Shown piece after piece: positions 1 through 15,142 of a stretch of DNA of 64,000 bases. Every line of letters starts with the position of its first letter. The first letter of the stretch is position 1. The position numbers and the translations under genes were made by a program. This stretch comes from Armatimonadota bacterium (lineage in GTDB: Bacteria; Armatimonadota; Chthonomonadetes; Chthonomonadales; Chthonomonadaceae): assembly GCA_028871815.1 (NCBI GenBank), contig JAGWMJ010000001.1, positions 648,715 through 712,714 on the forward strand, written 5' to 3'. Below the pieces are notes generated by a model. That model saw only the letters and a list, made by a program, of their open reading frames with translations, made no database searches and was not told the DNA's origin.

Positions 1-3000
1 ATCCGTTTACTCTGGAAAACGATGGCAACATCAATGCATTCGACCTTCGTGTGGCAAAGCTTACCGGACCGGTTGGCGCCGGGTTGGATGCAACAACGGT
101 TTCACTGACGCCCGGCGCCAACAAGGCAGCGTCGGCGATCCTCGGCAGCGACCAGGTCGATGACCTTGCGATCACGCCGCTCATCGCAGATCCGTTTGGT
201 GGAATCGGCGAACTGTACGGTCAGGGATTCTCGTGGGGACTTGGCAACATTGGCCTGGTCTCGTCGTTCGACCACCCCAGTACCAATGCGCCGTACCTCT
301 CGAGGCGTGGCGCCGGCAACACGCACGTCTACTTCAACGAGCACCCGGTGTGGCCGATACCCGACAATTATGTAAGCCTGCCATCCGGTTGGACGCAGCT
401 GCCGCAAGTGGCTTTCGAGCAGGGTCCTACAGACCTCCTGATGAGCTGGGCGAATGGCTTCGAGCCACAGCCAACCCTGCACAAGCCGGAGGTCGGCGAC
501 GCGCAGCCCACTACGGCCACAGTTCCCGACGTACCGCACAATGCCGCGTACGACAGCCTGATCAATCCGTTCCTGAACACAACGGGAACCACTCAGGTGA
601 CGACCACGCCGAGGCTCGGCTTCGCCATACCCATCGGCACGCCGTCCGGATCGTACTACAACCCGGTGTATGTGTACGACGACAACACGCCAATGCAGTG
701 GCGGGAGTGGTTGACGCAATCGAATCCAAACGCGCCTCTCGCCGGAAGCACGGATCCCAGCCATGACGGAATCCTGAACACCGGCCCTTCAGGCACGCCA
801 ATCGAGACGCGCGCCGATCCCACAATGCTGGTGAAAGCAACGGTGCGTGATACGCGCCTCACCGGCGGCGTCACCTACGGCTCACCGGTACAGATCGGTT
901 CGAACGTAGAAACGCCTGGAGGCGGCACCATCAACTCGATCGGCTCCGACGTTCTGCCGGCCGTCCAACGGATCAACTCCGTAGGTGAGTCGAATCTGTT
1001 CGTCTACTGGTCCACCGACCGCCAGCCAATCGCCGGCGTTCCTGGACCGGGATCGCCCTGGAGCCTGGCGTGGTCGGAGTTGCTGAGCGCCGATGGTGAC
1101 TTCCGCTTTGCAAACCCCGGCACGGCCGCCGGCGCGCAAGATGGCGAGTTGTGGGGCACGGCGCCCTACGGGATGACGCTTCATCCAGACCCCACCGCAT
1201 TTCCGGTAACCACGCTCTTCCCAAGCACCGCGCCGGGCACCGCCGGCAACCCGCTCAACCTACCGGCGCTGCCAGGTACGCCAAACCCAACCACGGTACG
1301 GCATACCACACCGGCAATCGCCACCCTGCTGGTAGTCCGCAACAGCGGAGCGATCATCACATCCACAGAGACCTGGCTTTTCTGGCAGGGTTCCGTGCAG
1401 AAGACCGCGCCGGATGGCATCACACAGATCAACGACAGCCGCACCTTCTACGAGCCGTTATTTGGAAATGGCGTGATCGTAGGACAGCCGAGCAATCAGA
1501 TATCCGCCTTTCTGAATGATCCGCAGATGCCCAAGCTGGGCGTGAAGCCGCTTGAGTTCCAGCTCTCCGGAAACAACCAGGTGCCGACAACGCGGTATAT
1601 GTACCTCTTCTGGTACACCGGCAGCCCGGGCCACTACACGCTCTATTACAACGTCAACGTCAGCCGAACCGGCAGCTTCCCGGTAGCCGGCTGGGGTGTG
1701 CTCGGCGACCAGAAGCTGCCGCTGCCCGGCACGCTCGCATGGGCCAGTGACCCGTATCCAATCTACCGCGTAGCGTGGGTGAACGGAGCGCTTCAGCACT
1801 GCATCGACGTGGTGTACGACGGCGTCTTCCGTAACCATCGGAAGTCGGAGGTTCTGCTCTCGCGGTTCGTCGTGAATCGGACCGCCATCAAAAACGGACC
1901 CGCTGCAGGCACGCTGTCACTGGTAAGTCTGCCGCAGAGTCGTGAGGAGACACTGAGCCGAGACGGCGCTACCAACACCTGGATTGCCCGTGATGCAGGC
2001 TGGAATATGAGCCTCGCGGATCCCGGCTCGGTAACAATCTTTGTGATGCATAACGGCCAGCTGATGCCGGTGAACACCCGTTCCGATGGCAATCCGCAAA
2101 TAGGAACCTTCGATGCCGCTTCGGGCCTCGTCTACTATGCTTCGCAAGGCCGTGACTTCACCGGGAACCCGGTGACGGGGGCAAACGCCTTTGGCGGCGG
2201 CCAAGTGGTGGTCGATCCGCAGTTCGGCAGCGTCAGCTTCCCGAACGTACCGCCCGGCGTGAATGACACGGTGCTGGCCACCTACACACCAACCGTAATG
2301 CGACTCAACGCGTCGCGGGACGATCGACTGGTGTTCCGGGATTCGCCTTCCAACTTCAGCACAAACTGGTCGAATGACGGCGCCTTTACGCCGCGTCCGG
2401 CCCAGATGGCGCCCGGTGATAACACGAATCCGGTGGTAGTGCTGGATCGTACGCCAAACCCGAGAGCGGCGCTGCTCGATCCTGCCGTGGTCTTTAATAC
2501 CGTGGGCACCACCGTGCCGCCGGTTGACCGGCTCTGGGTGCTCTATCAGAAGACGGACAACAGTGGCGTGGCCAAGAACAGCATCTACTACAAAGCGATG
2601 CGCCTTATGATCAAGCTGCCGCGGCCGGTGCTGCTGACGCCTCCGGATGCAAATGGTAATCAACAGATATCCGGTCCAATAACGATAACGCCCGACGCAA
2701 CACTGGGCCACGCGATCGGACCGTACGAAATCGACTGGGTGCGCGGTCGCATCTACTTCACCGAAGCCGATGAAGGCAACGTGATACACGTCAACTATCC
2801 GTACGCGCGGAACGGCGGCCAGGTGGTGACAACCGGTGACCTGGAGTACACCGTGGGCTGGGAAGACGAGATAAGCGCGGCCGGGCAGCCAAGCAGTTCC
2901 GGGCAGCCGTTCTACGATCTCACCACGCCCGAGCAGCCGATGCCAACCACCAGTTCGGTGAACGAGGGGCAGGTAGCGGCATGCCTCGATCCGTTCACGG

Positions 3001-3191
3001 AGAAGATGTGGGTCTTCTGGTCCAGTAACAGGGCCAAGTCAGCCACCAACAGCAACTCGCCGTTTGCCGACCGGTTCTTCCAGTTCCCGCCGGACGGACA
3101 GCCAACGGGTGATCCTGCGCTTGCCGAGTCGAACCTGTTCTACCAGGTGCTGGCGCCGCAGTTCTATCCCGATGCAACCAACGCACACTAG
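1..3191 (+). CDS. Large repeat-containing protein of unknown function, 5' end outside window
   Basis: The reading frame is open from base 3 to the TAG at 3189-3191 and has no stop upstream of the first in-frame GTG (51), which lacks a ribosome binding site. The gene therefore starts before the window, and at least 1,062 residues are visible. I do not recognise a domain. Short strands ending in an aromatic pair recur: VYWSTDR near 1000-1020, LFWQGS near 1377-1394, LFWYTG near 1605-1622 and VFWSSNR near 3012-3032. Each is followed by polar loop residues, which suggests repeated beta blades as in sialidase-like propellers. The sequence is rich in Pro, Gly, Thr and Asn, has few Cys and shows no membrane segment, as expected of a large exported or surface protein. 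Function is unknown and the propeller idea is inference. Confidence 0.8.
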   Translation, partial: PFTLENDGNINAFDLRVAKLTGPVGAGLDATTVSLTPGANKAASAILGSDQVDDLAITPLIADPFGGIGELYGQGFSWGLGNIGLVSSFDHPSTNAPYLSRRGAGNTHVYFNEHPVWPIPDNYVSLPSGWTQLPQVAFEQGPTDLLMSWANGFEPQPTLHKPEVGDAQPTTATVPDVPHNAAYDSLINPFLNTTGTTQVTTTPRLGFAIPIGTPSGSYYNPVYVYDDNTPMQWREWLTQSNPNAPLAGSTDPSHDGILNTGPSGTPIETRADPTMLVKATVRDTRLTGGVTYGSPVQIGSNVETPGGGTINSIGSDVLPAVQRINSVGESNLFVYWSTDRQPIAGVPGPGSPWSLAWSELLSADGDFRFANPGTAAGAQDGELWGTAPYGMTLHPDPTAFPVTTLFPSTAPGTAGNPLNLPALPGTPNPTTVRHTTPAIATLLVVRNSGAIITSTETWLFWQGSVQKTAPDGITQINDSRTFYEPLFGNGVIVGQPSNQISAFLNDPQMPKLGVKPLEFQLSGNNQVPTTRYMYLFWYTGSPGHYTLYYNVNVSRTGSFPVAGWGVLGDQKLPLPGTLAWASDPYPIYRVAWVNGALQHCIDVVYDGVFRNHRKSEVLLSRFVVNRTAIKNGPAAGTLSLVSLPQSREETLSRDGATNTWIARDAGWNMSLADPGSVTIFVMHNGQLMPVNTRSDGNPQIGTFDAASGLVYYASQGRDFTGNPVTGANAFGGGQVVVDPQFGSVSFPNVPPGVNDTVLATYTPTVMRLNASRDDRLVFRDSPSNFSTNWSNDGAFTPRPAQMAPGDNTNPVVVLDRTPNPRAALLDPAVVFNTVGTTVPPVDRLWVLYQKTDNSGVAKNSIYYKAMRLMIKLPRPVLLTPPDANGNQQISGPITITPDATLGHAIGPYEIDWVRGRIYFTEADEGNVIHVNYPYARNGGQVVTTGDLEYTVGWEDEISAAGQPSSSGQPFYDLTTPEQPMPTTSSVNEGQVAACLDPFTEKMWVFWSSNRAKSATNSNSPFADRFFQFPPDGQPTGDPALAESNLFYQVLAPQFYPDATNAH

Positions 3192-3375: not shown

Positions 3376-3452
3376 GGCGGAGTAGCTCAGCTGGTTAGAG
3401 CATACGGTTCATACCCGTAGTGTCGAGGGTTCGAGTCCCCCCTCCGCTACCA
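3376..3452 (+). tRNA. tRNA-Met (anticodon CAT), CCA encoded
   Basis: A full cloverleaf can be folded. The acceptor arm GGCGGAG pairs with CTCCGCT, leaving a G1-U72 pair common in elongator tRNA-Met. The D-arm is GCTC/GAGC, and the anticodon stem TACGG/CCGTA encloses loop TTCATAC, giving anticodon CAT at 3410-3412. The T-loop is TTCGAGT, with one A-C mismatch in the T-stem. The discriminator A and a genomic CCA follow. The anticodon stem lacks the three G-C pairs of initiator tRNA, so this is elongator Met, or Ile2 if the C is lysidinylated. An integrase remnant starts 166 nt downstream, so this tRNA is the likely integration site of the following island. Confidence 0.95.
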
Positions 3453-3617
3453 TCATCCTGTCTGCTGACACCTGCGGACAGTTGGACAAATCCCTGGTTT
3501 CCGCCAGGTTATGGGCATTCGCTGCTCGTTGGCGATTGCCCCTCCTTGCCTGCACGTGCGCCCGATGGTTCCTAAGCAGGGGGCTTTGTAGCGCCCGGCA
3601 GAATCGGGACTGCAATC

Positions 3618-3782
3618 ATGCTGGCAGACACCGCCATCCGCAACGCCAGGTGCAGAGAACAACCTTACCAGGCGTGGGACTCGCAGGGCCTGTACCTGCC
3701 GGTCGATCCAGGAGGCAGTGAGCTGTGGCGCGGCACGCTCTCCCCTATTGCATCGCCGCTTGCCGCCGCCAAGGGCCGTTGA
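3618..3782 (+). pseudogene. N-terminal fragment of a P4-type tyrosine recombinase (integrase)
   Basis: From ATG 3618 the frame reads MLADTAIRNARCREQPYQAW, then LYLPVDPGGSELWRG. This matches the start of the arm-DNA-binding domain (DUF4102) of P4-family integrases, whose usual consensus runs LTDxAIRNAKPxxKPYKL then GGLYLLVxPxGxKLWR. Only about 40 residues are homologous. The frame then runs into a TGA at 3780-3782, and the core-binding and catalytic domains (R-H-R-Y) are missing; they were probably lost in a deletion joining this end to the relaxase remnant. The fragment lies 166 nt beyond a tRNA 3' end, the classical position of an integrase gene in this kind of element. Upstream, 3453-3617 holds no recognisable gene. 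Confidence 0.72.
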
Positions 3783-3822
3783 GAGCGCATCGGCGCAGGC
3801 TGAACGGTCTGGCTTGGGCTGG

Positions 3823-5026
3823 AGTGCTGCGCAGCGCACCGCAGGCGAGCGGCTCTTGATCAGCCGCAACAGCACCACCACCTTGCAGGGCCACCCAGGC
3901 GCCGCGAAGACCACGACGGTTCTGGCGAGATTTGCCCGCGAAGCCGAAGCGCAAAACGTTTCTACCGCCGCGCTTGCGCCAACTGCATCGTCCGCGATGG
4001 TGCTGGCCGAGGCGCTGTGCGCGCGGAGCGACACCATTGCCCGCCATTTGTTGTCACTTGACCAGTCCCATCAGGGGCAATCCGCCCGGTGGATCGTGGA
4101 CGAGGCGTCTCTGTGCTCGGCGCGCGATACTACCCGGCTATTCGACCTGGCCGAGATGCAAGACGCCTGCGTCGTTCTTATTGGTGACGCGAAGCAGCCT
4201 GGATCGGTCGAGGCGAGCCGCGCCCTTTCTCATCGAGCCGTCACGGGAAGCGGGCGATGCGCTGGACGGCGATACTCGCGGCGCACTCTGCCAATCGGGT
4301 GCGTTGTCCGGCCCCGCCGTCACGATGCAAAGCCTTGCCAACAAGGGGCTTACCCGTGCCGAGGGCCGCGAGCCATTGAGCCACAACAAAGGCGATGTTA
4401 TCTGGTTCGCCCGCGATGGTGCCGACAAGGGAGTTACACCCGGCGAAGCCTACCACGTGGAGTCAGACGAACCGGCAAAAGCCGCCGTGACGATCAAATC
4501 CGAGGACTGGTGGGCGGTGGATTGGCGGTTGCGGCAATGGGGCGCGGGCTACATCGAGGCATTTTCGCGGCAATCGCTCAAACTCAAGACCGAACGCAGC
4601 ATCCGATTCACGCGGAACGACCGGGAAGCAGGCCGGACCAATGGTGCTCGCGGCGAGGTGACCGCAATTGACGAACAGGCCCACGTTGCCATCGTCCGTA
4701 ATCCGCGCGACTAGACGCAGACATTGAACCTTGATGAAGCCCGCGACCGGCACACTGCCTATGCTTATGCTAATACCACTTAGGCCGCCCTTGGCGGCGC
4801 CGCCCATCATGTGATGACCCGGGCGGACAGCAAGGCGACAAATCTTGTCAATGAGAGGTCATACTATGTAGGGGCTTCGCAAGCCAAGGAGTCGGTCGCC
4901 ATCTTCACCAATGACCGCGGCAAACTGGTGTCCGCGATCAACGAACGGGCAGAGCAGGCCCACACCGCGATCGCTAGGGCCGACATGCCCACGCCCACTG
5001 CCGACCAGGCAGCAGGGCCGGGGTGA
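3823..5026 (+). pseudogene. TraI/TrwC-like conjugative relaxase helicase domain, broken
   Basis: Frame 1 (about 3823-4225) encodes a helicase start: LQGHPGAAKTTTV (Walker A), LAPTASSA, WIVDEAS (Walker B) and VLIGDAKQPGSVEA, the motif series of the AAA_30 helicase half of TraI/TrwC relaxases. Similarity then passes to frame 2 near 4220-4230, marking a frameshift, and continues through KGDVIWFARD and the oligonucleotide-binding-like middle part. In-frame TAG codons interrupt it at 4712-4714 and 4781-4783, after which YYVGASQAKESVAIFTND matches the C-terminal helicase motif with YVxxSRA spacing. The relaxase nickase domain is absent. One frameshift, two nonsense codons and a missing N-terminus make it non-functional. 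It identifies the island as a former conjugative or mobilisable element, probably of proteobacterial type (inference). Confidence 0.8.
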
Positions 5027-5160: not shown

Positions 5161-7059
5161 ATGCTGAAAGGGCAGTGGGAAATATCCGGACGCGGACTGT
5201 CGTTACTCGATCCGGTGGGAAATCGGATTCAACCGTCGGCAATAGATGTTTACCGCGCGCTTGTGGAAGGCCGCCCGTCTGAGTCCTGGATCCCCACCGT
5301 TGCCGATGGCCTGCGGGCCTCGCGCTATCCGCTATCGCCAACCCTGACCATTGTTGAGAGCGGCGAAGGCATCCCCGCCTATGCCATTTTTGGCAGTGCC
5401 AGGGGTGTGACGCTTGAGCTTGACGTTGCCGACCTTGAGCGGGGCTACACGGTCGCCAATGGCGTGTGGCATCCGGTCGAACCGGCAGCGACCCAGGAAG
5501 TCCTTGAACTGCTGCGCAACACTGGCGCACATATCGGCCGGGCCTGCTCGCTACGCGCCTTTCTTGCGGTGCGCAGGGCGGGCGCCGCGGGCGGTGCGGT
5601 CGATGACCAGATGACCGACGAGGCGATTTCACCGCTCGTTTTTGCCCCACCTGCCGATGAAGTTCCCGCCGGAGTCGATGCCGTGCTCTATTCGTACCAG
5701 TTGGCAGGCTGGCGCTGGCTCAAGTTCCTGCTGGCGGAAGGTATCGGCGGACTGCTGGCCGATGAAATGGGCCTCGGCAAAACGTTGCAAGTCATTGCCG
5801 TGCTCAGCGATTCCGGCGGCGGGCCACTGCGACCGGCCCTGATTATCGCCCCCGGCTCGCTGCTGGAAAACTGGCGGCGCGAAATAGCAAGGTCTGCGCC
5901 GCACCTGCGCGTGCTGAAACACAACGGCCCGCTGCGCACGGGCCGTCCCGCAGAATTGCAGGGCTATGACGTGATTATCACGTCCTATGACAACGCGGTG
6001 GGCGACAACAGCCTGCTCAACATGATCCGCTGGAGAGTCGTCGTCCTCGATGAGGCGCAGTTCATCCGCGACCCGAACGCGCAGCGCACGAAGGCGGTCA
6101 AGCGCCTGCACCGCGAAGCTGGCTTGGCTATGACCGGCACCCCGGTTGAAAACCGCCTGCTCGATCTGTGGTCGATCATGGACTTTGTGCTTCCCGGACA
6201 CCTTGGCGATGCCAAGGCCTTCGAGTCGCAGTTTCCCGATGACATGGACGGCGCGGCCCGGCTGGAACCGCTGGTGTCACCGCTCATGTTGCGCAGGCGT
6301 GTCGCTGAGGTGGCGAGTGACCTGCCGCCGCGTATCGATATTCCCCAAGTGCTTGAGCTGGATGGCCAAGAGGCTGCCGGCTACGATGCCGAGCGCGAGC
6401 GTATCATGGTGGAATACGGAGATGGCGCAACCCTCGTTGCACTCACGTCGTTGCGCCGCTTCTGCGCCCATCCAAGCCTCGTGAACGGCACCTCGGCCAT
6501 GTGCGATCCCATGGTGTTTTCCAAGTTCCGTCGCCTTGACGAGATCGTGGAGGAGGTATTCGCGCGAGGCGAAAAGGTCATCATCTTCACGTCCTTCACG
6601 ACGATGGCCGACATGATTGCCCGGCACATCGAAACCCGCTTTGGCGCTTTTGCAGGAGTCATCGACGGTCGCCTTGCGATCGATGACCGCCAGCCGCTAA
6701 TAGACCGTTTCAGCGCCGTCCGGGGCGGTGGCGCCCTTGTTCTCAATCCCAGGGCAGGCGGTTCTGGCCTCAATATCACCGCCGCCAACCACGTTATCCA
6801 CTACAATCCCGAATGGAACCCGGCCTTGGAGGACCAGGCTTCCGCCCGCGCACACCGGCGCGGGCAGGATCTGCCGGTGACTGTCCATCGCCTTCTGGTT
6901 GGCGATACTGTCGAGGAAGTCGTGGACGAGCGCCTGACGCGCAAACGTGCGCTGTCCGATACCGCCGTTATTGGAATTGAAGGGAAAGAAGACGACTATA
7001 GCGATATTGTTGCGGCGCTGAATCGTTCACCATCCAGGCGGGTCGCAAGTAGAACATGA
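5161..7059 (+). CDS. SNF2-family DNA helicase/translocase
   Basis: This 632-residue superfamily 2 ATPase is first in a four-gene operon. Residues 1-170 form a family-specific N-terminal region. The SNF2 core follows: the YQLAGWRWLKFLL lead-in, Walker A DEMGLGKT at 201-208, DEAQ (instead of DEAH) at 297-300, motif III MTGTPVENRL near 325, and a C-terminal helicase lobe with SGLNITAA and motif VI ARAHRRGQ. Such proteins translocate on duplex DNA and here probably power a restriction complex. The ATG has a good GAGGGGG ribosome site. The stop overlaps the next start (ATGA at 7056-7059), so the two are translationally coupled. SNF2 enzymes next to MORC-like ATPases and nucleases are known from restriction-type neighbourhoods, and antiphage function is inferred from that context. 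Confidence 0.93.
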   Translation: MLKGQWEISGRGLSLLDPVGNRIQPSAIDVYRALVEGRPSESWIPTVADGLRASRYPLSPTLTIVESGEGIPAYAIFGSARGVTLELDVADLERGYTVANGVWHPVEPAATQEVLELLRNTGAHIGRACSLRAFLAVRRAGAAGGAVDDQMTDEAISPLVFAPPADEVPAGVDAVLYSYQLAGWRWLKFLLAEGIGGLLADEMGLGKTLQVIAVLSDSGGGPLRPALIIAPGSLLENWRREIARSAPHLRVLKHNGPLRTGRPAELQGYDVIITSYDNAVGDNSLLNMIRWRVVVLDEAQFIRDPNAQRTKAVKRLHREAGLAMTGTPVENRLLDLWSIMDFVLPGHLGDAKAFESQFPDDMDGAARLEPLVSPLMLRRRVAEVASDLPPRIDIPQVLELDGQEAAGYDAERERIMVEYGDGATLVALTSLRRFCAHPSLVNGTSAMCDPMVFSKFRRLDEIVEEVFARGEKVIIFTSFTTMADMIARHIETRFGAFAGVIDGRLAIDDRQPLIDRFSAVRGGGALVLNPRAGGSGLNITAANHVIHYNPEWNPALEDQASARAHRRGQDLPVTVHRLLVGDTVEEVVDERLTRKRALSDTAVIGIEGKEDDYSDIVAALNRSPSRRVASRT

Positions 7060-7469
7060 CGGATCAGCAGATTGTCAAGGTGCTGAGCGCCAATGATACG
7101 GGCGAAACGGGCGGCCACCAAGCCGGAATCCTTGTGCCGAAAGACCCGGCGTTGCTGTCATTCTTTCCGAAGCTCGACGCGAGCCTCTACAATCCGCGCG
7201 TTCACCTGCGCTTTGTCGACGATGGCGGGACAATGTGGGAGTTTGCGTTCATCTACTACAACAACGCCCTGTTTGACGGCACCCGCAACGAGTATCGACT
7301 GACCCGGATGACGAAGTATATCCGCAAGGCCGCTCTTTCCGTCGGCGACGAGGTGATCCTGTCGAAAGGCGGTGCCCGCTACACGGTTTCACATGCGCGC
7401 AGGCAGCAGCCGAAGGTCACCGGAGGCGTCCTGCAGCTCGGCACCCGCTGGCGAGTAATAAAGCTTTAA
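7056..7469 (+). CDS. Stand-alone EcoRII N-terminal (effector DNA-binding) domain protein
   Basis: This 137-residue protein corresponds to the EcoRII-N domain alone. Its VLSANDTGETGGHQAG, YYNNALFDGTRNEYRLT and central FP and NP positions align with the N-terminus of the full EcoRII-type enzyme encoded at 9940-11172, which has RLSGNDTLANGSHQAG and YYNNALFGGTRNEARLT. In EcoRII this domain binds a second copy of the recognition sequence and allosterically controls cleavage. No nuclease domain is present here: the protein ends about 40 residues after the conserved block. It sits between an SNF2 ATPase (ATGA overlap) and a GHKL ATPase (13 nt gap). The likely role, by inference, is to give the helicase/ATPase/HNH complex sequence specificity for the same methylation-sensitive site that the neighbouring restriction enzyme recognises. 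Confidence 0.85.
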   Translation: MTDQQIVKVLSANDTGETGGHQAGILVPKDPALLSFFPKLDASLYNPRVHLRFVDDGGTMWEFAFIYYNNALFDGTRNEYRLTRMTKYIRKAALSVGDEVILSKGGARYTVSHARRQQPKVTGGVLQLGTRWRVIKL

Positions 7470-7482
7470 AGGAGGAGGAATT

Positions 7483-9093
7483 GTGAGCATAACTCAGCAG
7501 TTCGAGCTGCCGCCAGACCCAGAACGGGTAATGGCCGGCCTGCGTGATACCGGCTACGAGTTCGAGACCGCCGTGGCGGACATCGTGGACAACTCGATTG
7601 CCGCCAACGCAAAGAAGGTCCAGCTTTTCCTTGCCGCCGACGTCCACGGCGACATCCGCCTGCTGATCGCCGATGATGGCGAGGGCATGGACCAGGAGGG
7701 CCTTATCAATGCCATGCAGTATGGCTCGAAGGTGCGCCCAAGCGTCGCCAGCCTAGGCAAGTATGGTCTCGGCCTCAAGACCGCCTCAACTGCGTTCTGC
7801 AAGCGACTCTCGGTCATTTCACGCGCAGACGGTACGGTGCCCGCCCTGATGGCGACGTGGGACCTGGACCACGTTGCAAAGGTTAACAAGTGGTCGCTGC
7901 TCCTCAGCGATGATTGTGATGCGGAAGCGGTGGAACTGCTGGACGAAGTGGCTCCCGGCAAATCCGGTACCGTCGTTCTGTGGGAGAACGTGGACCGGCT
8001 CATCAAGGACTACTCCAGACCAACCGGATCGGCCGCGAAAAAGGCGCTCCAGGCGAAAGAACTTGCGCTGCGCCGCCATGTGGCAATGGTCTATCAGCGG
8101 TTCCTCGATCCAGCGGACGACCGCGCGCCTAATGTCGCCATCGAGGTGAACAGCGAGCCTGTCGAGCCGTGGGACCCGTTCCAGCGCGACCTGTCGGAGC
8201 TGGTTGCCGAGGACTCGGTCACGACAAACCTTGACGCTCAGCGCGACGCGTCATTTGTCATTCGCGCCTATATCCTGCCACGGCGGGAGGAGTTCCCTAA
8301 CGACAAACTTGCGCAGGCTGCGCTGCTGTCCAACGACCGGCAGGGCATCTACATTTACCGTGAAAACCGACTGATCCACGACGCCGACTGGCTTGGCCTC
8401 TACCAGAAAGAGCCTCACCTGACGCTGCTGCGCGTCGAGTTCTCGTTCGATCACAAGCTGGACGACGCTTTCCATCTCGACATCAAGAAATCGCAGATCA
8501 TCCTCAACGATGACTTGGCCGCCTGGCTGGAATCCGAGTTCCTGCCCGCGCCCCGGCGCGAAGCCAACCGGCGCTCGCGTGAAGGCCAGCAGAAGGCCAT
8601 TTCCAAGAAGGGCGAAGGCGCGCACGACACCTCGAACAACAACATACGCAACCGCGAGGCGGCTGCTGGCGGCCCGGAGGTCAATGACGTCAATCCCACC
8701 ACGGGCGAAGCCACCGTTCAAAATAAGCATGGCAGGGTCCGCCTGAAACTCACCATCACCTCAGCCAAACGGCCCGGCGAAGTGTTCGTTCAGCCGGTTG
8801 ACGGGATCACCAACGGGCTGCTGTTCCAGCCCGCGCTGATCGAGCAGCACAAGGCCGTGCAGATCAACACGAGCCATCCCTATTACCACAAGGTCTATGT
8901 CCCCAACCTCAACCGCAGCGTGACCATGCAGGGCCTCGACTCGCTTATGTGGGCGCTGGCGGTGGCGGAACTGTCGTCCGTGCAGGACAGCACTGCGGAA
9001 ATGTTCCGTGACATGCGCTACGAAGTGTCACGCATCCTGGAGAAGCTGGTCGAAACCCTCCCGGAGCCGGACGTGGAGGAGAATGTCGCCTGA
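7483..9093 (+). CDS. MORC-like GHKL ATPase
   Basis: The 536-residue protein has the three ATP-binding motifs of the GHKL (gyrase, Hsp90, histidine kinase, MutL) fold: an N-box with VADIVDNSIAA at 31-41, G1 DDGEGMD at 64-70, and G2 GKYGLGLKTAS at 92-102. A long S5-like and C-terminal region follows, with a polar, basic linker around residues 360-400 (REANRRSREGQQKAISKKGE). This arrangement matches prokaryotic MORC/paraMORC proteins, which occur in restriction-modification neighbourhoods with SF2 helicases and nucleases and are thought to clamp or loop DNA in an ATP-dependent way. The start is GTG at 7483 behind a strong AGGAGGAGG site. The HNH gene begins within its last codons. It is not MutL: there is no endonuclease or mismatch-repair context. 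Confidence 0.88.
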   Translation: MSITQQFELPPDPERVMAGLRDTGYEFETAVADIVDNSIAANAKKVQLFLAADVHGDIRLLIADDGEGMDQEGLINAMQYGSKVRPSVASLGKYGLGLKTASTAFCKRLSVISRADGTVPALMATWDLDHVAKVNKWSLLLSDDCDAEAVELLDEVAPGKSGTVVLWENVDRLIKDYSRPTGSAAKKALQAKELALRRHVAMVYQRFLDPADDRAPNVAIEVNSEPVEPWDPFQRDLSELVAEDSVTTNLDAQRDASFVIRAYILPRREEFPNDKLAQAALLSNDRQGIYIYRENRLIHDADWLGLYQKEPHLTLLRVEFSFDHKLDDAFHLDIKKSQIILNDDLAAWLESEFLPAPRREANRRSREGQQKAISKKGEGAHDTSNNNIRNREAAAGGPEVNDVNPTTGEATVQNKHGRVRLKLTITSAKRPGEVFVQPVDGITNGLLFQPALIEQHKAVQINTSHPYYHKVYVPNLNRSVTMQGLDSLMWALAVAELSSVQDSTAEMFRDMRYEVSRILEKLVETLPEPDVEENVA

Positions 9094-9937
9094 CCCTCGT
9101 TCACTCGCAAAGCGGGTATCGGCGGAAACCGGCCTCGCGTTCACCGGCACCGAGGGACGCGACAGCGACGGCAGCCGCTGGCTGGAATTGCGGCCAGCGG
9201 GACATCCCCCTGGCCAGACCTTCGCACTGCGCACCGTAATCGGCTGGCGGCGGATCGACGTGGAGTTCCGCCCCGGCAACTTTGCCGGGGAGCTTGTGGA
9301 AGCAATGGGCCGCGCCGATGAGAGCGGACGCCAAACCTTCCGCGCGGTGCTTGCCGCCTGCCGTGACGCCGGTGCCGATGTTGCGCTGGCCGTGAACGGC
9401 ATCGCAACCAATCCCGAGGACGACGCGATATGGTCCGCACCGTGGCGCAGCCTCGACCTCACCATCCGGCGCGGGATGCTCGCCATCAACGAGGGCGATG
9501 CCGATGCGGACATGCGCCAGATCGAACTTTGGACCGTGCGCGCGGCGGCGGCTGTGCTGGCGTTGCTGCCGCTTGAGATCGACAGCGAGGAGTCCGGGGA
9601 AGTCGCGCCCGATTTTGCGGGGCTGCCCGAAGGGACAGAAGCCCGCATCGACGTGAACCGCTATGAGCGCGACCGCCGCAACCGTGCCGCCGCGCTCGCC
9701 ATCCACGGCTATTTCTGCAAGGCCTGCGACCTCGACATGGGCGAAAGATACGGTCCCGCAGCGGCGGGCCTGATAGAGGTCCATCACGTCACGCAGGTAT
9801 CCGAAGTGGGACCGGGCTATATCATCGACCCGAAAAGCGACCTGATGCCGCTCTGTCCGAACTGCCACGCCGTCGCGCACCGGCGCTCGCCGCCGTTCTC
9901 GGTCGATGAACTCCGCGAGATGCAGCGCCCGTCCTGA
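9083..9937 (+). CDS. HNH endonuclease with an unassigned N-terminal domain
   Basis: The ATG at 9083 follows GGAGGA at 9075-9080 and overlaps the end of the GHKL gene by 11 nt, so I prefer it to upstream in-frame starts. The 284-residue product has a C-terminal HNH fold: C212-x2-C215, the HH pair at 234-235 (IEVHHV), the LMPLCPNCHAVAH segment with C258-x2-C261, and H266. These supply the zinc knuckles and the catalytic His of the family. Residues 1-165 form a separate domain that I do not recognise, containing WRRIDVEFRPGNF and WRSLDLTIRRGM. It may bind DNA or the ATPase partners. As the only nuclease in the operon, it is the likely cutting subunit of the SNF2/MORC complex. The stop lies 2 nt from the stop of the convergent EcoRII gene. 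Confidence 0.9.
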   Translation: MSPDPRSLAKRVSAETGLAFTGTEGRDSDGSRWLELRPAGHPPGQTFALRTVIGWRRIDVEFRPGNFAGELVEAMGRADESGRQTFRAVLAACRDAGADVALAVNGIATNPEDDAIWSAPWRSLDLTIRRGMLAINEGDADADMRQIELWTVRAAAAVLALLPLEIDSEESGEVAPDFAGLPEGTEARIDVNRYERDRRNRAAALAIHGYFCKACDLDMGERYGPAAAGLIEVHHVTQVSEVGPGYIIDPKSDLMPLCPNCHAVAHRRSPPFSVDELREMQRPS

Positions 9938-9939
9938 TC

Positions 9940-11172
9940 CTACGGCGAGACAGTCAGCAGCCGCACATCGCCGATGAAACTCTCAAGGGTCTGTAGGTGC
10001 GGCTGCACCTCCTTAGGGAAGGATGCCACGCGTTGCGCCGGAACCACAAGCTGCACACCCGCACCGCTCATTTCCGCGAACTGCGACACCGACACGCCCT
10101 CCTGGAGCGTCAGCAAGTGCTTGTTGGGAATACGGTCGGCCTCATTGAGAATCTGCCGCCAGCGATCCTTGCAGGTCGTCTTGACCGCGAGCATCCGCAG
10201 GCCGGAGGCGGGAAAGCTTACGTCCTGATAGGCCCCCTGTGACGGAAAGAGAAAGTCGGGCTTCTTCGTTCCTTCCGAAACAGGCTGGTATGAGAAATGC
10301 TGATTCTCGACCAGCCGCTCCTCAATGAAAATCTCGCGCGCGTGCAGTTCCAGCGACCGCCCCGCGCGCATCCTGCGCCGTTGCAGCACCGTCTGCGCCC
10401 GGTGCACGAAATCGTCGACCGTTTTAAACCCGGCGAGGATATGCGGCAGTTCTACCGCATCTTCGATGCTGCGGAACAGCTCGAACTCACATTCGCGCCG
10501 CTGCATGAGCCGCTGGTCGGGCGGCAGCGTCGGCAGCGGGCGCAACTCGACCGCCTTGTGCACAATTTCTGCCGCGGCAGGAAAATCCGAGAGCCACGCG
10601 GGTGGCATGTCGGCACGTTCGAGCCAGCAGCTTGTATGGGGTGGTGCGTCCGGCTGTGCGAGGTTCGCGGGCGCCTTGACGGGCGACCAGATCAGGAACC
10701 TGCCCGGATCGACTGGTCCAACCCGGTCCTCAACAAGATCCTCCTCAGTTTCGTGCTGACAGACCCACACATGGCAGTCGATTGCCGGGCCCGCGCTGTC
10801 GAGCCGGAACGCGAACACGGTGAGCGCGCCAGTGCTGTCAGGATCGAGAAGCGCCGAACTCTGTCCGCCTAAATTCGTCAGCCGCGCTTCGTTGCGTGTG
10901 CCGCCGAACAGCGCGTTGTTGTAATAGACCGCCCGGACCTTGCGGTGATCCACGCCGGAATCGACGTAGAGATCAAACCACACATTGGGATTCTTGATGT
11001 CGGTCCTGTTGACCGCTGGGAACACCTGGAACATGAACTCGCGCGGCACATACGGCCCCGCCTGGTGCGAGCCGTTGGCCAGCGTGTCGTTGCCTGACAG
11101 CCGTTTCACATACCAGACAGTATCCGGGCTGGCGAAGTCATCCAGCCAGTCCGAAACGTCAGCAATGGCCAC
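9940..11172 (-). CDS. EcoRII-type (Type IIE) restriction endonuclease
   Basis: The 410-residue enzyme has both EcoRII domains. The N-terminal effector domain lies at about 17-150 (RLSGNDTLANGSHQAG, YYNNALFGGTRNEARLT). The C-terminal PD-(D/E)xK-like nuclease domain lies at about 225-405 (SLELHAREIF, KKPDFLFP, LAVKTTCKDRWRQ, NKHLLTLQEGVS). D306, Y315, K331 and R337 sit at a constant offset of seven from the EcoRII residues I recall as catalytic or cleft residues (Y308, K324, R330), so the enzyme looks active. EcoRII needs two copies of its site (CCWGG in the prototype); the specificity of this homologue is not certain. Its start overlaps the vsr end by 14 nt, so methyltransferase, vsr and nuclease form one operon. 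Placing the nuclease last favours methylation first. Confidence 0.93.
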   Translation of the reverse strand: MAIADVSDWLDDFASPDTVWYVKRLSGNDTLANGSHQAGPYVPREFMFQVFPAVNRTDIKNPNVWFDLYVDSGVDHRKVRAVYYNNALFGGTRNEARLTNLGGQSSALLDPDSTGALTVFAFRLDSAGPAIDCHVWVCQHETEEDLVEDRVGPVDPGRFLIWSPVKAPANLAQPDAPPHTSCWLERADMPPAWLSDFPAAAEIVHKAVELRPLPTLPPDQRLMQRRECEFELFRSIEDAVELPHILAGFKTVDDFVHRAQTVLQRRRMRAGRSLELHAREIFIEERLVENQHFSYQPVSEGTKKPDFLFPSQGAYQDVSFPASGLRMLAVKTTCKDRWRQILNEADRIPNKHLLTLQEGVSVSQFAEMSGAGVQLVVPAQRVASFPKEVQPHLQTLESFIGDVRLLTVSP

Positions 11173-11635
11173 GCGGCGACTCCCCCCTCAGCGTCCCCTC
11201 ACCTATAGCACCGCTGGTGATCCAGTCCGCGGCCCTGTCGAGCGTCGTATTGCGATCGGCGTCCGTTCTGCCTCGGAAGGCACATTCCCATATCGTCAGA
11301 ACGCGCCAGCCTCTTTCGTTTAGGAGTTCCGCCGCCCTGTGGTCACGCGCGCGGTTGCCCGCAATCTTCTCGCGCCAGAAATCTTCGCGCGTGCGCGGCC
11401 AGCGAAACAGCGGGCAGTCGTGGCCGTGCCAGAAACAGCCGTGCACGAAGATCGCTGCATGGTAGCGCGGCAGGATTAGGTCCGGGCGTCCCGGCAGGCT
11501 GCGATCATGCAGCCGGAATCGGAATCCCCTGCGATGCAGTCCACGGCGCACGAGCATTTCCGGTTTGGTATCCTTGCCATGGATACCGGCCATCATGCGG
11601 CGGCGCGTGGCGGCATCTACAATGTCAGACCACAA
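11159..11635 (-). CDS. vsr: Very short patch repair endonuclease (Vsr)
   Basis: Vsr nicks 5' of the T in T:G mismatches left by deamination of 5-methylcytosine, and so offsets the mutation cost of the neighbouring methyltransferase. This 158-residue protein matches the family length and motifs: the start region MMAGIHGKDTKPEMLVRR, LPGRPDLIL with the catalytic Asp, FVHGCFWHGHDC with the catalytic His and zinc ligands, and TIWECAF with the last zinc Cys. The start is probably the TTG at 11635, because the family's conserved N-terminal helix lies before the first ATG. It overlaps the methyltransferase stop by 11 nt, and its own end overlaps the EcoRII gene, so all three are translationally coupled. 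The last ~35 residues after the core are not conserved. Confidence 0.93.
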   Translation of the reverse strand: MWSDIVDAATRRRMMAGIHGKDTKPEMLVRRGLHRRGFRFRLHDRSLPGRPDLILPRYHAAIFVHGCFWHGHDCPLFRWPRTREDFWREKIAGNRARDHRAAELLNERGWRVLTIWECAFRGRTDADRNTTLDRAADWITSGAIGEGTLRGESPRGHC

Positions 11636-12890
11636 GCGGCAGTCTCCGCTGCTTCATTTCCACGTCTGTGCGTGCCGTCAGCCATGGGGCCATGTGCTCC
11701 GCCACAGCTTCCACTGCCGGCACAACCACGGCGTTGCCGAACTGGCGATAGGCTTGGGTGTCGGAGACCCGAATGACGAAGTCGCTGCCGTTGGGCCCGT
11801 CGAAGCCCATAAGCCGCGCGCACTCACGCGGCGTCAGGCGGCGGGGATTGCCCCGCCCGCGCGAGACAAGGATTTCCGAACCGTCTTTGAAATACCTGGC
11901 GGACAGGGTGCGCGCCACATCAGTCTTGCCGACCAGGCCGAAGCCGAAGCCGTTACCGCGCTGGCGGTGTTTCGCGGCATAGTCCTGAAGATACCGCCAG
12001 AGGTGATCGGTGAGCACATAGCGATCCGACACCGTGCGCATATTCCCGACCGTGTAATGACCGTCCGCTCCTTCGCTGCCGTCGCCTGGATGAAGGATGC
12101 TACCGAGCTTTGGCCCTTTCAGTGGATCGGGAATCAGGAAATCTGAAAATGTGAAATCGTTGGGATCGCGGAAGCCCACGATGAAAATGCGCTCGCGGTG
12201 TTGCGGCACCCACGAGCGAGCATCGATGACCTTCCAGTGGACGTGATAGCGGAGTTCCTGCGTGAGCGTACGGTGGATGATTTCAAAGGTCCGCCCGCGA
12301 TCATGGTTTACGAGGTTCTTGACGTTTTCGAGCAGAAACGCACGCGGGCGGTGATGTTCGATAATCCGCGCTACATCAAAGAACAGTGTTCCCTGCGCCT
12401 CGCAGCGGAAACCGTGCGCGCGCCCGAGCGCATTTTTCTTTGACACCCCCGCAATCGAAAACGGCTGGCAAGGAAAACCCGCTAGCAGCAGATCATGTTC
12501 AGGGATGGAACTAACCGGCACCTCTGTAATGTCGCCCGTTACTTCATGGTCGCAGCCGTAGTTCGCCTTGTACGTCAACTGGCAGTAGCGGTCCCGTTCG
12601 CTGGTGAACACACACTCGCCTCCCAAAGGATCAAAGCCGCGTCGCATTCCACCGATCCCTGCAAACAGGTCGATGAACCGGAAAGCGCTGCCTTGCCCGT
12701 TCCTGGCACGGCGTTCGTCGATGATCCTCTGCAACAGTTCGACCGCCGCCGTGCGAGGATTCGTCTCGCCGCGCTCCCACCGATACACGGTGCTGGCGGA
12801 ATAGCCGCCAAGTTCCCCGACTTGCTCGATGCTCAGTCCAGCCAGCGTGCGAAGCTGGGAAAACGCGGATGTGGCGATGGCTGACTGCAC
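11625..12890 (-). CDS. DNA (cytosine-5) methyltransferase with N-terminal XRE-type HTH
   Basis: The enzyme adds a methyl group to C5 of cytosine in the restriction site and protects the host from the EcoRII-type nuclease. Motifs in order: I FIDLFAGIGGMRRGF, IV GFPCQPFS with the catalytic Cys, VI ENVKNL, VIII QHRERIFIVGF, IX RRLTPRECARLMGF and X QFGNAVVVPAVEAV. The first ~60 residues form an XRE-type helix-turn-helix (LSIEQVGELGGYSASTVYRWERG), as in methyltransferases that repress their own transcription. I choose GTG 12890 (421 residues) because AGAGGGGGG lies just upstream; an ATG at 12977 would add 29 low-similarity residues. It heads the operon with vsr and the nuclease. Dcm-like specificity is plausible from the EcoRII and Vsr partners but is not shown. 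Confidence 0.93.
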   Translation of the reverse strand: MQSAIATSAFSQLRTLAGLSIEQVGELGGYSASTVYRWERGETNPRTAAVELLQRIIDERRARNGQGSAFRFIDLFAGIGGMRRGFDPLGGECVFTSERDRYCQLTYKANYGCDHEVTGDITEVPVSSIPEHDLLLAGFPCQPFSIAGVSKKNALGRAHGFRCEAQGTLFFDVARIIEHHRPRAFLLENVKNLVNHDRGRTFEIIHRTLTQELRYHVHWKVIDARSWVPQHRERIFIVGFRDPNDFTFSDFLIPDPLKGPKLGSILHPGDGSEGADGHYTVGNMRTVSDRYVLTDHLWRYLQDYAAKHRQRGNGFGFGLVGKTDVARTLSARYFKDGSEILVSRGRGNPRRLTPRECARLMGFDGPNGSDFVIRVSDTQAYRQFGNAVVVPAVEAVAEHMAPWLTARTDVEMKQRRLPLVV

Positions 12891-12990
12891 GGGATGCCCC
12901 CCTCTGGGAAACTCTTTGCCATTCTGACACGTGGAGTCCCGGCATAGCAAGAACGAAGCTGGACATTTCCCGCCCATAGCGCGCTTTTTC

Positions 12991-13002: not shown

Positions 13003-13067
13003 CCGGGTGAACAGACCGTCAGCCGCGCAAAAGCGCGACGGCGGGCAGCACCGTCACTAGCGCCTCG

Positions 13068-13081
13068 CTCCGCTATCCATC
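13068..13081. repeat. Possible right attachment site (imperfect copy of the tRNA-Met 3' end)
   Basis: CTCCGCTATCCATC here compares with CTCCGCTACCATC at 3442-3454, covering the last acceptor-stem bases, discriminator and CCA of tRNA-Met, with one inserted T. It falls exactly between the last island gene and the first apparent core gene. The match is short and could be chance. Confidence 0.3.
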
Positions 13082-13088
13082 GAGCGCC

Positions 13089-14276
13089 TCACCCGGCTCT
13101 GTCGCCGCCTTCCGGCGCTGACCACGCAACCTCGCCGGCGCGAATCGCGGCTTTGATGTGGAGTTGACCCTCGCCGCCCAGCGTGAACAAGGTCAGATCG
13201 GCATCGTACCCGGGGACCACGGCGCCTTTGCGCTTGTTGGCGCCTATGATGCGTGCCGGCGTTTCGGTCACGGTGGCAATCGCTTCGGCGAGCGGCATCT
13301 GGGTGCAGCGCAGGAGGTTTTCGAGGCCGGTGTTCAGCCGCTGCGCTGCGCCGGCAAGGTAGGGCGTGCCGGCCAGGTTCAGTCCGCCATCGCTCTGCAC
13401 CTCGTACACACCATTCGCATAGAGGCCGGCCGGCATCCCGGCAAGCGACATCACGTCGCTTACCAGAGCCATCCGCCCTCGCGCTTTCACGCGCGCAATA
13501 ACCTGGATCACCTCGGCCGGCAGATGCCGCCCATCGGCGATGATTGTGGCGGTTAGCCGGTCATCCGCCAGCTGCTGCCAGATGTAGTTGGGGTGGCGCG
13601 GTAAAACGGCGTGAGCGCCATTGCCGAGGTGGGTGCTTACGGTAGCCCCTGCTGCCGCCGCACCGCGAATGTCGGCCCGCGATGCCGCGGTGTGGCCCAC
13701 GGCAACGGAAATACCGGACTCCACCAGTCGCTCAATGAACGGCAACGCGCCCGGAAGCTCCGGCGCCAGCGTCACCAGCCTTATCGCTCCACCGGCCGCA
13801 TCCTGCAGCATCTCGAAGTCGGACCATGCCGGCAGGCGAATGCAGTTGGCGGGATGAGCGCCGCGCGGGCCATCCTCGCCCGATATCCACGGTCCCTCCA
13901 CATGAATACCGATGGTCGCGCCCGCCAAATCCGGATGCGCATCCATGTTCGCAGCAATCACTGCCACTCGCTCCCGCATGGAGTGCAGTGGCGCGGTGGT
14001 GATCGTAGGCGCGAATGTGGTGACGCCTGCCGCCGCCATTCCGGTGGCTATTTCGGCGTGGCCGCGGGCATCTGCTTGGTGAGCGCCCCAGGAGTCGCCA
14101 TTGAAATCCCAACCGGCCCAGCCATTCACCTGGAGATCGATGAACCCCGGCGCCAGCCAGCAATCCGCAGCCTCCTCCGCCGCTTCAGCAACGGAATGGA
14201 TGCGGCCGTTCCTGCAGTGCACGGTCACGGGCAGTCCGGTGGTGACGAGGCGCCCCGAGTACCGCGTTTCGGGCAT
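13089..14276 (-). CDS. nagA: N-acetylglucosamine-6-phosphate deacetylase-like amidohydrolase
   Basis: The enzyme removes acetate from GlcNAc-6-phosphate, feeding amino sugars into glycolysis. Seen in the sequence: APGFIDLQVNGW near the start of the barrel, GIHVEGPWIS with the metal-binding Glu, VGHTAA and STHLGNGAHAV with metal His residues, LVSDVMSLAG with the catalytic Asp, and the C-terminal G-x3-PGYDADLTL typical of the composite amidohydrolase domain. The product has 395 residues, close to the usual 380-400. The ATG at 14276 overlaps the TGA of the PHP gene by one base, so the genes are coupled. No nagB or sugar transporter lies nearby, so a related N-acyl sugar substrate cannot be excluded. 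Confidence 0.85.
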   Translation of the reverse strand: MPETRYSGRLVTTGLPVTVHCRNGRIHSVAEAAEEAADCWLAPGFIDLQVNGWAGWDFNGDSWGAHQADARGHAEIATGMAAAGVTTFAPTITTAPLHSMRERVAVIAANMDAHPDLAGATIGIHVEGPWISGEDGPRGAHPANCIRLPAWSDFEMLQDAAGGAIRLVTLAPELPGALPFIERLVESGISVAVGHTAASRADIRGAAAAGATVSTHLGNGAHAVLPRHPNYIWQQLADDRLTATIIADGRHLPAEVIQVIARVKARGRMALVSDVMSLAGMPAGLYANGVYEVQSDGGLNLAGTPYLAGAAQRLNTGLENLLRCTQMPLAEAIATVTETPARIIGANKRKGAVVPGYDADLTLFTLGGEGQLHIKAAIRAGEVAWSAPEGGDRAG

Positions 14277-15142
14277 CACGGCGTTATCCACACAGGCTGG
14301 CACCAGGCCATGGCCGCGCCGGCGCCGAAGCACTCGGCGCGAACGCAGCAGCCCTCCTCGCCGGTGATCTCGTACTCGGCGTGCGCGCCATTGACATATC
14401 GGCACTCAATACCGGCAGCGCCGATGAACCGGATACGCTGTGCGTTTGGAGCCACGATTCGAAGGAGTCTACCTTGCAACTCTATCGAATCGATCTGCAC
14501 GCCAGTGCTGGCGTAGAACCTTCCGTGCACCAGAGCATCGATGATCGCGGCCGGCGAGCGATCTGCAGCTTGCGCCACGTTCCAGCCGCGCTCCATATCG
14601 ATTTCGAAGTGTTTGTCGTCGTTCGCGAATCCCCACACCCGTTTGCCCTGTCCCAGCAGCCAGTCCCACCGGTCGGTGGCCATGGCCGCACCGTGCTGGC
14701 GCTCGACGATGCCGTTGTAGATCTCAATGCCGGCGTAACCCGTCAGCTCCAGCATCTGAGCGTTGGTAAAGTGCGAAAACTGCCGCTGCCAACTGGGATG
14801 GTTCAGAATCGTAAAGCCGCCCATTTCGGCGGTCTCGTCCAGCACCTTCTGGCGGTTGGGCGATGGATCGACCACGGCCGTTATTCCAACTGCGCCGATG
14901 TGAGAACCGTTCGCCGACACCTCGTCGGCGGGCAGGAGCGTCATCGCGGTTCGGGACTGGTAGTCGGCCGGGTCCACGAGGCTATCGTGGTCGGATATCG
15001 CCAGAAAGTGGTATCCAAGCGCCTCGTAATCGGCAATCGTCTGCTCGGGTGGCTTTTCACCGTCACTCACGGTAGTGTGCGTGTGCAGATTTCCCCGCAG
15101 CCATTGGAAACCGGAGCCCAGGTAGGGCGAGTCAAGTTGCAT
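14276..15142 (-). CDS. PHP-domain metal-dependent phosphoesterase
   Basis: This 288-residue protein has the PHP metal-binding signature: NLHTHTTVSDG near residue 18, then AISDHDSLVDP, a mid-protein His (ILNHPSW) and FANDDKHFEID near the end of the barrel. PHP proteins hydrolyse phosphate esters using two or three metals. The terminal ~70 residues after VHGRFYASTG form a beta-rich extension common in PHP proteins linked to carbohydrate genes. The start ATG lies directly after the rhamnosidase TAG, with AAGGAG inside the last rhamnosidase codons, and the end overlaps nagA. Its position between a glycosidase and NagA suggests a role in sugar-phosphate metabolism; the substrate is unknown. Confidence 0.8.
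   Translation of the reverse strand: MQLDSPYLGSGFQWLRGNLHTHTTVSDGEKPPEQTIADYEALGYHFLAISDHDSLVDPADYQSRTAMTLLPADEVSANGSHIGAVGITAVVDPSPNRQKVLDETAEMGGFTILNHPSWQRQFSHFTNAQMLELTGYAGIEIYNGIVERQHGAAMATDRWDWLLGQGKRVWGFANDDKHFEIDMERGWNVAQAADRSPAAIIDALVHGRFYASTGVQIDSIELQGRLLRIVAPNAQRIRFIGAAGIECRYVNGAHAEYEITGEEGCCVRAECFGAGAAMAWCQPVWITP

Follow-up and report, generated by a model that had tools for sequence, protein, structure and literature searches.

What is a 54-residue open frame doing directly behind an intact tRNA-Met gene, and which DNA arrived together with it? The question is raised by the window analysed here, a 64,000-nt stretch (positions 648,715-712,714) of a contig 717 kb long, from a genome with a completeness of 98.3%. 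An earlier note on this DNA had taken the frame for the arm-binding start of an integrase left at the edge of an island. We consider it highly probable that the island is a decayed IME of sphingomonad type residing in tRNA-Met, in which one deletion between copies of GGCGCG killed the integrase gene (int) and transfer and left the defence cargo open. The features of the locus are collected in Table 1.

Table 1. Features of the tRNA-Met island and its host flanks (window coordinates).
Feature	Position	Strand	Evidence
C-terminal part of giant host protein, left flank	51..3191	+	match in 25/31 genomes of the order (own included)
Intact tRNA-Met (CAT) with encoded CCA, integration target	3376..3452	+	ARAGORN; Rfam RF00005 62 bits
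attL core, tRNA 3' end and first element bases	3437..3454		paired with 13063-13081
Element leader between tRNA and int	3453..3617	+	homologous to sphingomonad element leaders
Integrase stump, codons 1-38, arm DNA-binding start	3618..3731	+	PF13356 positions 1-35; at most 68% identity to intact integrases
Deletion joint, 6-nt microhomology GGCGCG	3727..3732		hexamer on int and mobF sides of relatives
Wrecked helicase half of MobF/TraI relaxase	3727..5026	+	tblastn with four intact MobF proteins; Pfam AAA_30, TraI_hel_assoc_N
SNF2 helicase	5161..7059	+	Pfam SNF2-rel_dom 3.1e-53; 74-75% to six alphaproteobacterial plasmid copies
EcoRII-N domain protein	7056..7469	+	PF09217 7.2e-16
GHKL ATPase, MzaB-like	7483..9093	+	HATPase_c_3 6.2e-30; PADLOC MzaB 6.7e-44; 77-80% to six plasmid copies
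HNH endonuclease	9008..9937	+	PF01844 8.6e-4, below cut-off; position of annotated HNH gene in L180, L181
EcoRII-type restriction endonuclease	9940..11172	-	PF09019 5.1e-59, PF09217 3.3e-56
Vsr endonuclease	11159..11635	-	PF03852 2.8e-30; TIGR00632 above cut-off
Dcm-type cytosine methyltransferase	11625..12977	-	PF00145 1.1e-76; TIGR00675 above cut-off
Candidate decayed attR, direct repeat of tRNA end	13063..13081		16/19, one inserted base
Host amidohydrolase gene, right flank	13089..14405	-	E<=1e-10 match in 21/31 genomes of the order (own included)

The intact tRNA-Met with an encoded CCA (3450-3452), on which the earlier note had relied, was confirmed, and it is followed by the island between two stretches of host DNA. 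To the left, the window starts inside an open frame that is 2830 aa long in the genome; no Pfam family is matched by the part of it lying at 51-3191, which is conserved throughout the order. To the right, the amidohydrolase has copies 47-52% identical in eight other genomes of the order. Among twelve listed tRNA-Met genes of the same family, eleven lack an encoded CCA; because several other tRNAs of the host genome also encode one, as judged by a crude end test, an origin of this CCA from the element is a hint only, and as proof of an insertion it was rejected. When 28 queries from the window were searched by tblastn beside tRNA-Met in 16 stretches from relatives no match was obtained, and the gene order is therefore not shared; the search of genome contigs likewise returned no relative with the upstream protein. 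The G+C content is 0.60-0.64 in the element and in long host stretches alike, and because base composition does not set them apart, such islands would be found only through their stumps.

The 54-aa frame (3618-3782) starts 165 nt 3' of tRNA-Met, and its residues 2-38 match positions 1-35 of the 83 in Arm-DNA-bind_3 (PF13356), the family formerly called DUF4102, with an E value of 2.9e-4 and a score of 21.4 bits, which is below the curated cut-off of 27. The intact relative in locus L174 scores 93.2 bits over positions 1-83 and contains the core and catalytic domains (Phage_int_M, Phage_integrase), neither of which is matched in the window frame. In a sample of 298 Sphingomonadaceae genomes, taken from a larger set, the 38-residue stump was matched in 60 (E<=1e-6), the best relative being 68% identical over 37 residues (E 2.3e-12). 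The tblastn matches listed from PLSDB begin at stump residue 1 or 2 and extend to residue 37-42; for several of them the annotation names an arm-type integrase. The arm-binding start proposed earlier holds up, including by profile search, for the first part of the frame only: integrase sequence ends at residue 37/38, and residues 38-52 belong to an in-frame MobF relaxase. The stump is a remnant and not a working arm-type (PF13356, P4-like) tyrosine integrase. When the whole genome was searched in six frames with PF13356 (E<=1), it went unreported, which agrees with the expectation that automatic methods would miss the fragment.

The distance from the tRNA to integrase residue 2 is 169 nt in the window and 171-174 nt in most close relatives. 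Thirty-two int loci were examined, from the Novosphingobium organovorum genome (G291) and the 298 Sphingomonadaceae genomes, G291 being one of these; in 28 of them a same-strand tRNA lies 154-207 nt before integrase residue 2 (or the nearest matched residue), and in the four others the fetched stretch holds no tRNA, two of these four lying close to a contig start. The top int identity, 67.6%, is reached in four loci (L133, L134, L135 and L138), two of which are at tRNA-Met, one at tRNA-Gly and one near a contig start. A profile was built from eight leaders, each running from the end of the tRNA to the start of int; it matches 3455-3608 in register with the tRNA end (nhmmer E 7.6e-23) and has no second match within the 64 kb. 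In a wider control set it gave no match at E<=10, either in 16 stretches of relatives or in 30 tRNA surroundings of the same genome. Two of 14 other integrase loci obtained a higher leader score than the window, the rest scoring lower or giving no match, and mean column identity in the 12-row leader alignment (A1) is 78%. The best single leader match, L139 (75% over 153 nt), sits at tRNA-Cys and not at tRNA-Met, which counts against the reading as an IME remnant. Since the leader is homologous to the int leaders of relatives, the DNA directly behind the tRNA is element DNA.

A frame as short as this one, with a profile score below the curated cut-off, might be a chance open frame whose likeness to an arm domain is accidental. 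This explanation is refuted and retains virtually no probability: the stump reaches 68% identity with intact integrases across 37 residues, it is preceded by a homologous non-coding leader and it is directly joined to a relaxase remnant. Chance resemblance is excluded because 60 of the 298 genomes match the stump and the leader matches as it does. Profile match, leader homology, tRNA-int geometry and host flanks together bear out the earlier claim that a dead tRNA-targeting integrase marks the left end and the direction of the island.

The leader also contains two inverted repeats (A1 columns 6-29 and 68-84) that are kept in elements at different tRNAs. In these repeats 92.8% of cells are paired, compared with 20.6-61.1% in slid versions, and no excess of covariation was found, the observed 3 pairs changed on both sides being reached in 295 of 500 shuffles. 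They could be protein-binding palindromes.

What adjoins the stump is the debris of a mobF gene. Positions 3729-3773 correspond to MobF codons ~405-419, with 73-87% identity over 15 residues to four intact proteins; a frameshift near 3760-3773 follows, after which the sequence reads on to codon ~575, and a second deletion near 4218-4230 has removed ~66 codons. The remnant is further interrupted by two TAG stops (4712-4714 and 4781-4783) before its natural end, TGA 5024-5026. Past the frameshift and to the C-terminus, identity is 56-65%, and at the DNA level the remnant is 69-74% identical to relatives. The relaxase domain and virD4 are gone from the window element and the helicase half is left. 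For the host's phylum 291 genomes were obtained with up to 400 requested, and one alphaproteobacterial family alone provided more than 298, which indicates that host and relatives belong to different phyla. In those 291 genomes this helicase part was matched in 38, the host's own included; the matches other than the window's own show 29-39% identity, and their open-frame lengths suggest that most are RecD2-like.

Among seven loci compared, L174, L175 and L177 have the hexamer GGCGCG on both sides, G337 has it on the int side, and L109, which has no int, has it on the mobF side; in L176 and G533 the exact hexamer is missing on both sides. The two joint points lie 6.6-6.7 kb apart in L174, L175 and L176 and 9.8 kb apart in G337. 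A single microhomology deletion would explain both stumps. The earlier statement that the rest of the integrase was deleted is correct insofar as the remainder is gone; the loss would have taken the form of one deletion fusing int to mobF and not of a simple truncation.

The attL at the left end is clear. At the other end of the island, a gapped comparison revealed an att-like repeat, CCTCGCTCCGCTATCCATC, in the intergenic stretch that separates the cargo from the right host flank. On the + strand, CTCCGCTA occurs in the 64 kb only there and at the tRNA. With a gapped scoring chosen after the site had been noticed by eye, the score of the candidate is reached in 7 of 2000 shuffles of this stretch and at 0.38% of 4530 window positions; three of these high-scoring positions include the site itself. 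A near-exact attR, with three mismatches or fewer, was sought without success in the window (25-mer) and in the genome (21-mer), and the best ungapped hit was 17/25. The candidate is shorter than the exact 23-25-nt repeats of the relatives, which also counts against the IME-remnant reading.

The in-frame fusion, the well-conserved leader and the att-like repeat on the right could together be taken to mean that the stump has been retained for a function and that the remnant is still mobilizable in cis, the int-MobF fusion peptide or the leader binding DNA and related integrases acting in trans. We regard this as very improbable: the arm domain breaks off after 35 of its 83 positions, the att repeat has decayed, a joint would be in frame by chance in one case out of three, and the six-frame PF13356 search found no arm-type integrase above the cut-off elsewhere in the genome.

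As to the kind of element that the IME remnant derives from, a search of genome contigs with the relaxase remnant returned one locus, L109 of Novosphingobium organovorum, and the same genome encodes integrases that reach 65% identity to the stump. Of the 13 loci with an int identity of at least 62%, six (G587, G503, G430, G337, G545 and G533) carry mobF on the same contig and strand, as does G358, where int identity is 59%. Their layout reads tRNA - int - small genes - virD4 - mobF - cargo. G358 and G533 are bounded by 23-25-nt repeats of the tRNA end, CCA included, placed 29.4 and 41.6 kb apart, and no bounding repeat was found within the fetched stretch of G503 and G337. In five relative elements, two of them repeat-bounded, tblastn with eight Trb mating-pair proteins gave no match while virD4 and mobF were matched in all five, and because of this their make-up is that of an IME rather than of a self-transmissible element. 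No mating-pair family appeared among the island proteins scanned. Counted against this parentage, mobF is absent from the stretches of 80 and 100 kb fetched around the two relatives at tRNA-Met. Since the stump was searched in G291, the 298 Sphingomonadaceae genomes and the PLSDB plasmids, there may be a nearer donor outside the Sphingomonadaceae.

The slot behind mobF is occupied by Dcm, Vsr and an MzaB-like ATPase in G503 and by a type IIG restriction enzyme in G337; in G545 the one protein scanned from there has no PADLOC match. Two peculiarities of these relatives deserve mention. A second, partial C-terminal piece of mobF (46 codons, 65% identity) is found ~42.2 kb behind the tRNA in G503 (L206), and in G533 (L178-L179) the interval between int and virD4, where the shorter elements have small genes only, holds an opposite-strand frame of 4012 aa.

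In the window, seven cargo genes occupy the stretch behind mobF. All are open, with no broken frame, and judged from sequence the cluster may be functional; the true start of the HNH gene probably overlaps the end of the GHKL gene. Plasmids of Sphingomonas melonis TY and Rhizobium gallicum carry these genes in the same order, and the parts that can be aligned show 70-73% DNA identity. In the annotation of the S. melonis TY plasmid (L180), GHKL is split over two frames and the EcoRII gene is shortened; this copy may thus be broken, unlike the window copy, which is open.

These plasmids bear other transfer genes, and in no fetched element is the cargo linked to the int-mobF type, nor are int or mobF among the matches listed for the three genomes, of the 298 from Sphingomonadaceae, with the closest GHKL relatives (G436, 61%; G565, 58%; G387, 42%); both observations count against the IME-remnant reading. 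The plasmid copies and the missing linkage in the fetched elements would be accommodated by two arrivals, the restriction/GHKL cluster having landed separately beside an already dead int-mobF element. We consider this unlikely, though the least unlikely of the alternatives. Between the natural end of mobF and the start of the cargo lie 134 nt, in which no other recombinase gene was recognised, other restriction genes fill exactly this slot in G503 and G337, cargo and mobF remnant show similar DNA divergence from their relatives, and the att-like repeat follows immediately after the cargo. Arrival of int and cargo in one event, from a sphingomonad or a near relative, is what we infer.

The history of the decayed IME can be pictured as follows. 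An IME of sphingomonad kind would have integrated through its integrase into the 3' end of the host tRNA-Met, the insertion restoring the tRNA and probably providing its CCA. It would have brought the seven-gene restriction and GHKL-ATPase defence cluster behind mobF. A later deletion between two GGCGCG copies would have joined int, at codon 37/38, in frame with codon ~406 of mobF, taking out virD4 and the relaxase domain; smaller lesions would then have finished mobF while the right att site decayed. Such an element would no longer be able to excise or transfer by its own genes.

The locus thus offers a base-resolution view of disarming, in which a 6-nt microhomology deletion would have removed integration and transfer and left the cargo whole, and it ties a restriction and GHKL-ATPase cluster of a thinly sampled phylum to a vehicle type of sphingomonads. 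We tentatively propose, as a possibility with the odds rather against it, that a tRNA-integrating virD4-mobF lineage keeps the slot behind mobF for methylation-linked defence and carries it between phyla, and that hosts keep the defence and lose the vehicle by microhomology deletions. If this is true, the window would be a frozen example, and its leader and att-like repeat a possible landing site for related elements.

Several known systems resemble the island in part. The cut-offs of named defence systems are not reached: NCBIfam MzaB scores 178.7 bits (cut-off 850), ZorD of Zorya 223 of 1500, DrmD of DISARM 78.8 of 950 and DpdE of Dpd 44.1 of 500. With MZA the window shares a GHKL ATPase near Dcm and Vsr, but has SNF2 and EcoRII partners instead. 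The virD4-mobF module of Blastomonas pBSY18_2 and Sphingopyxis pMC4 encodes the same MobF family (56-62% to the two main window pieces) and adjoins trb genes, whereas in the window the relaxase domain and virD4 are gone. In the parts of the literature consulted (PMC2292703, PMC5704250, PMC3516476, PMC4741004), a limited search met no description of a tRNA-site element kind with MobF and VirD4. IMEs, in the sections of PMC5704250 consulted, combine a tyrosine integrase at a tRNA 3' end, a relaxase and a coupling protein with the absence of mating-pair genes; they are reported to carry type II restriction genes, and the table notes give MobC, MobP, MobQ and MobV as canonical relaxases. The window element shares the tRNA 3'-end integrase, the relaxase gene (as a remnant), the restriction cargo and the lack of mating-pair genes, but it is dead, its host is of another phylum and its kind has MobF and VirD4. 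Its cargo fits the SWI2/SNF2-GHKL restriction-modification operons of Iyer et al. 2008 (PMC2292703), which comprise SNF2, HNH or EcoRII-like nucleases, GHKL, a cytosine methylase and Vsr; compared with the part of that account consulted, no difference was seen, the HNH match of the window itself being below cut-off.
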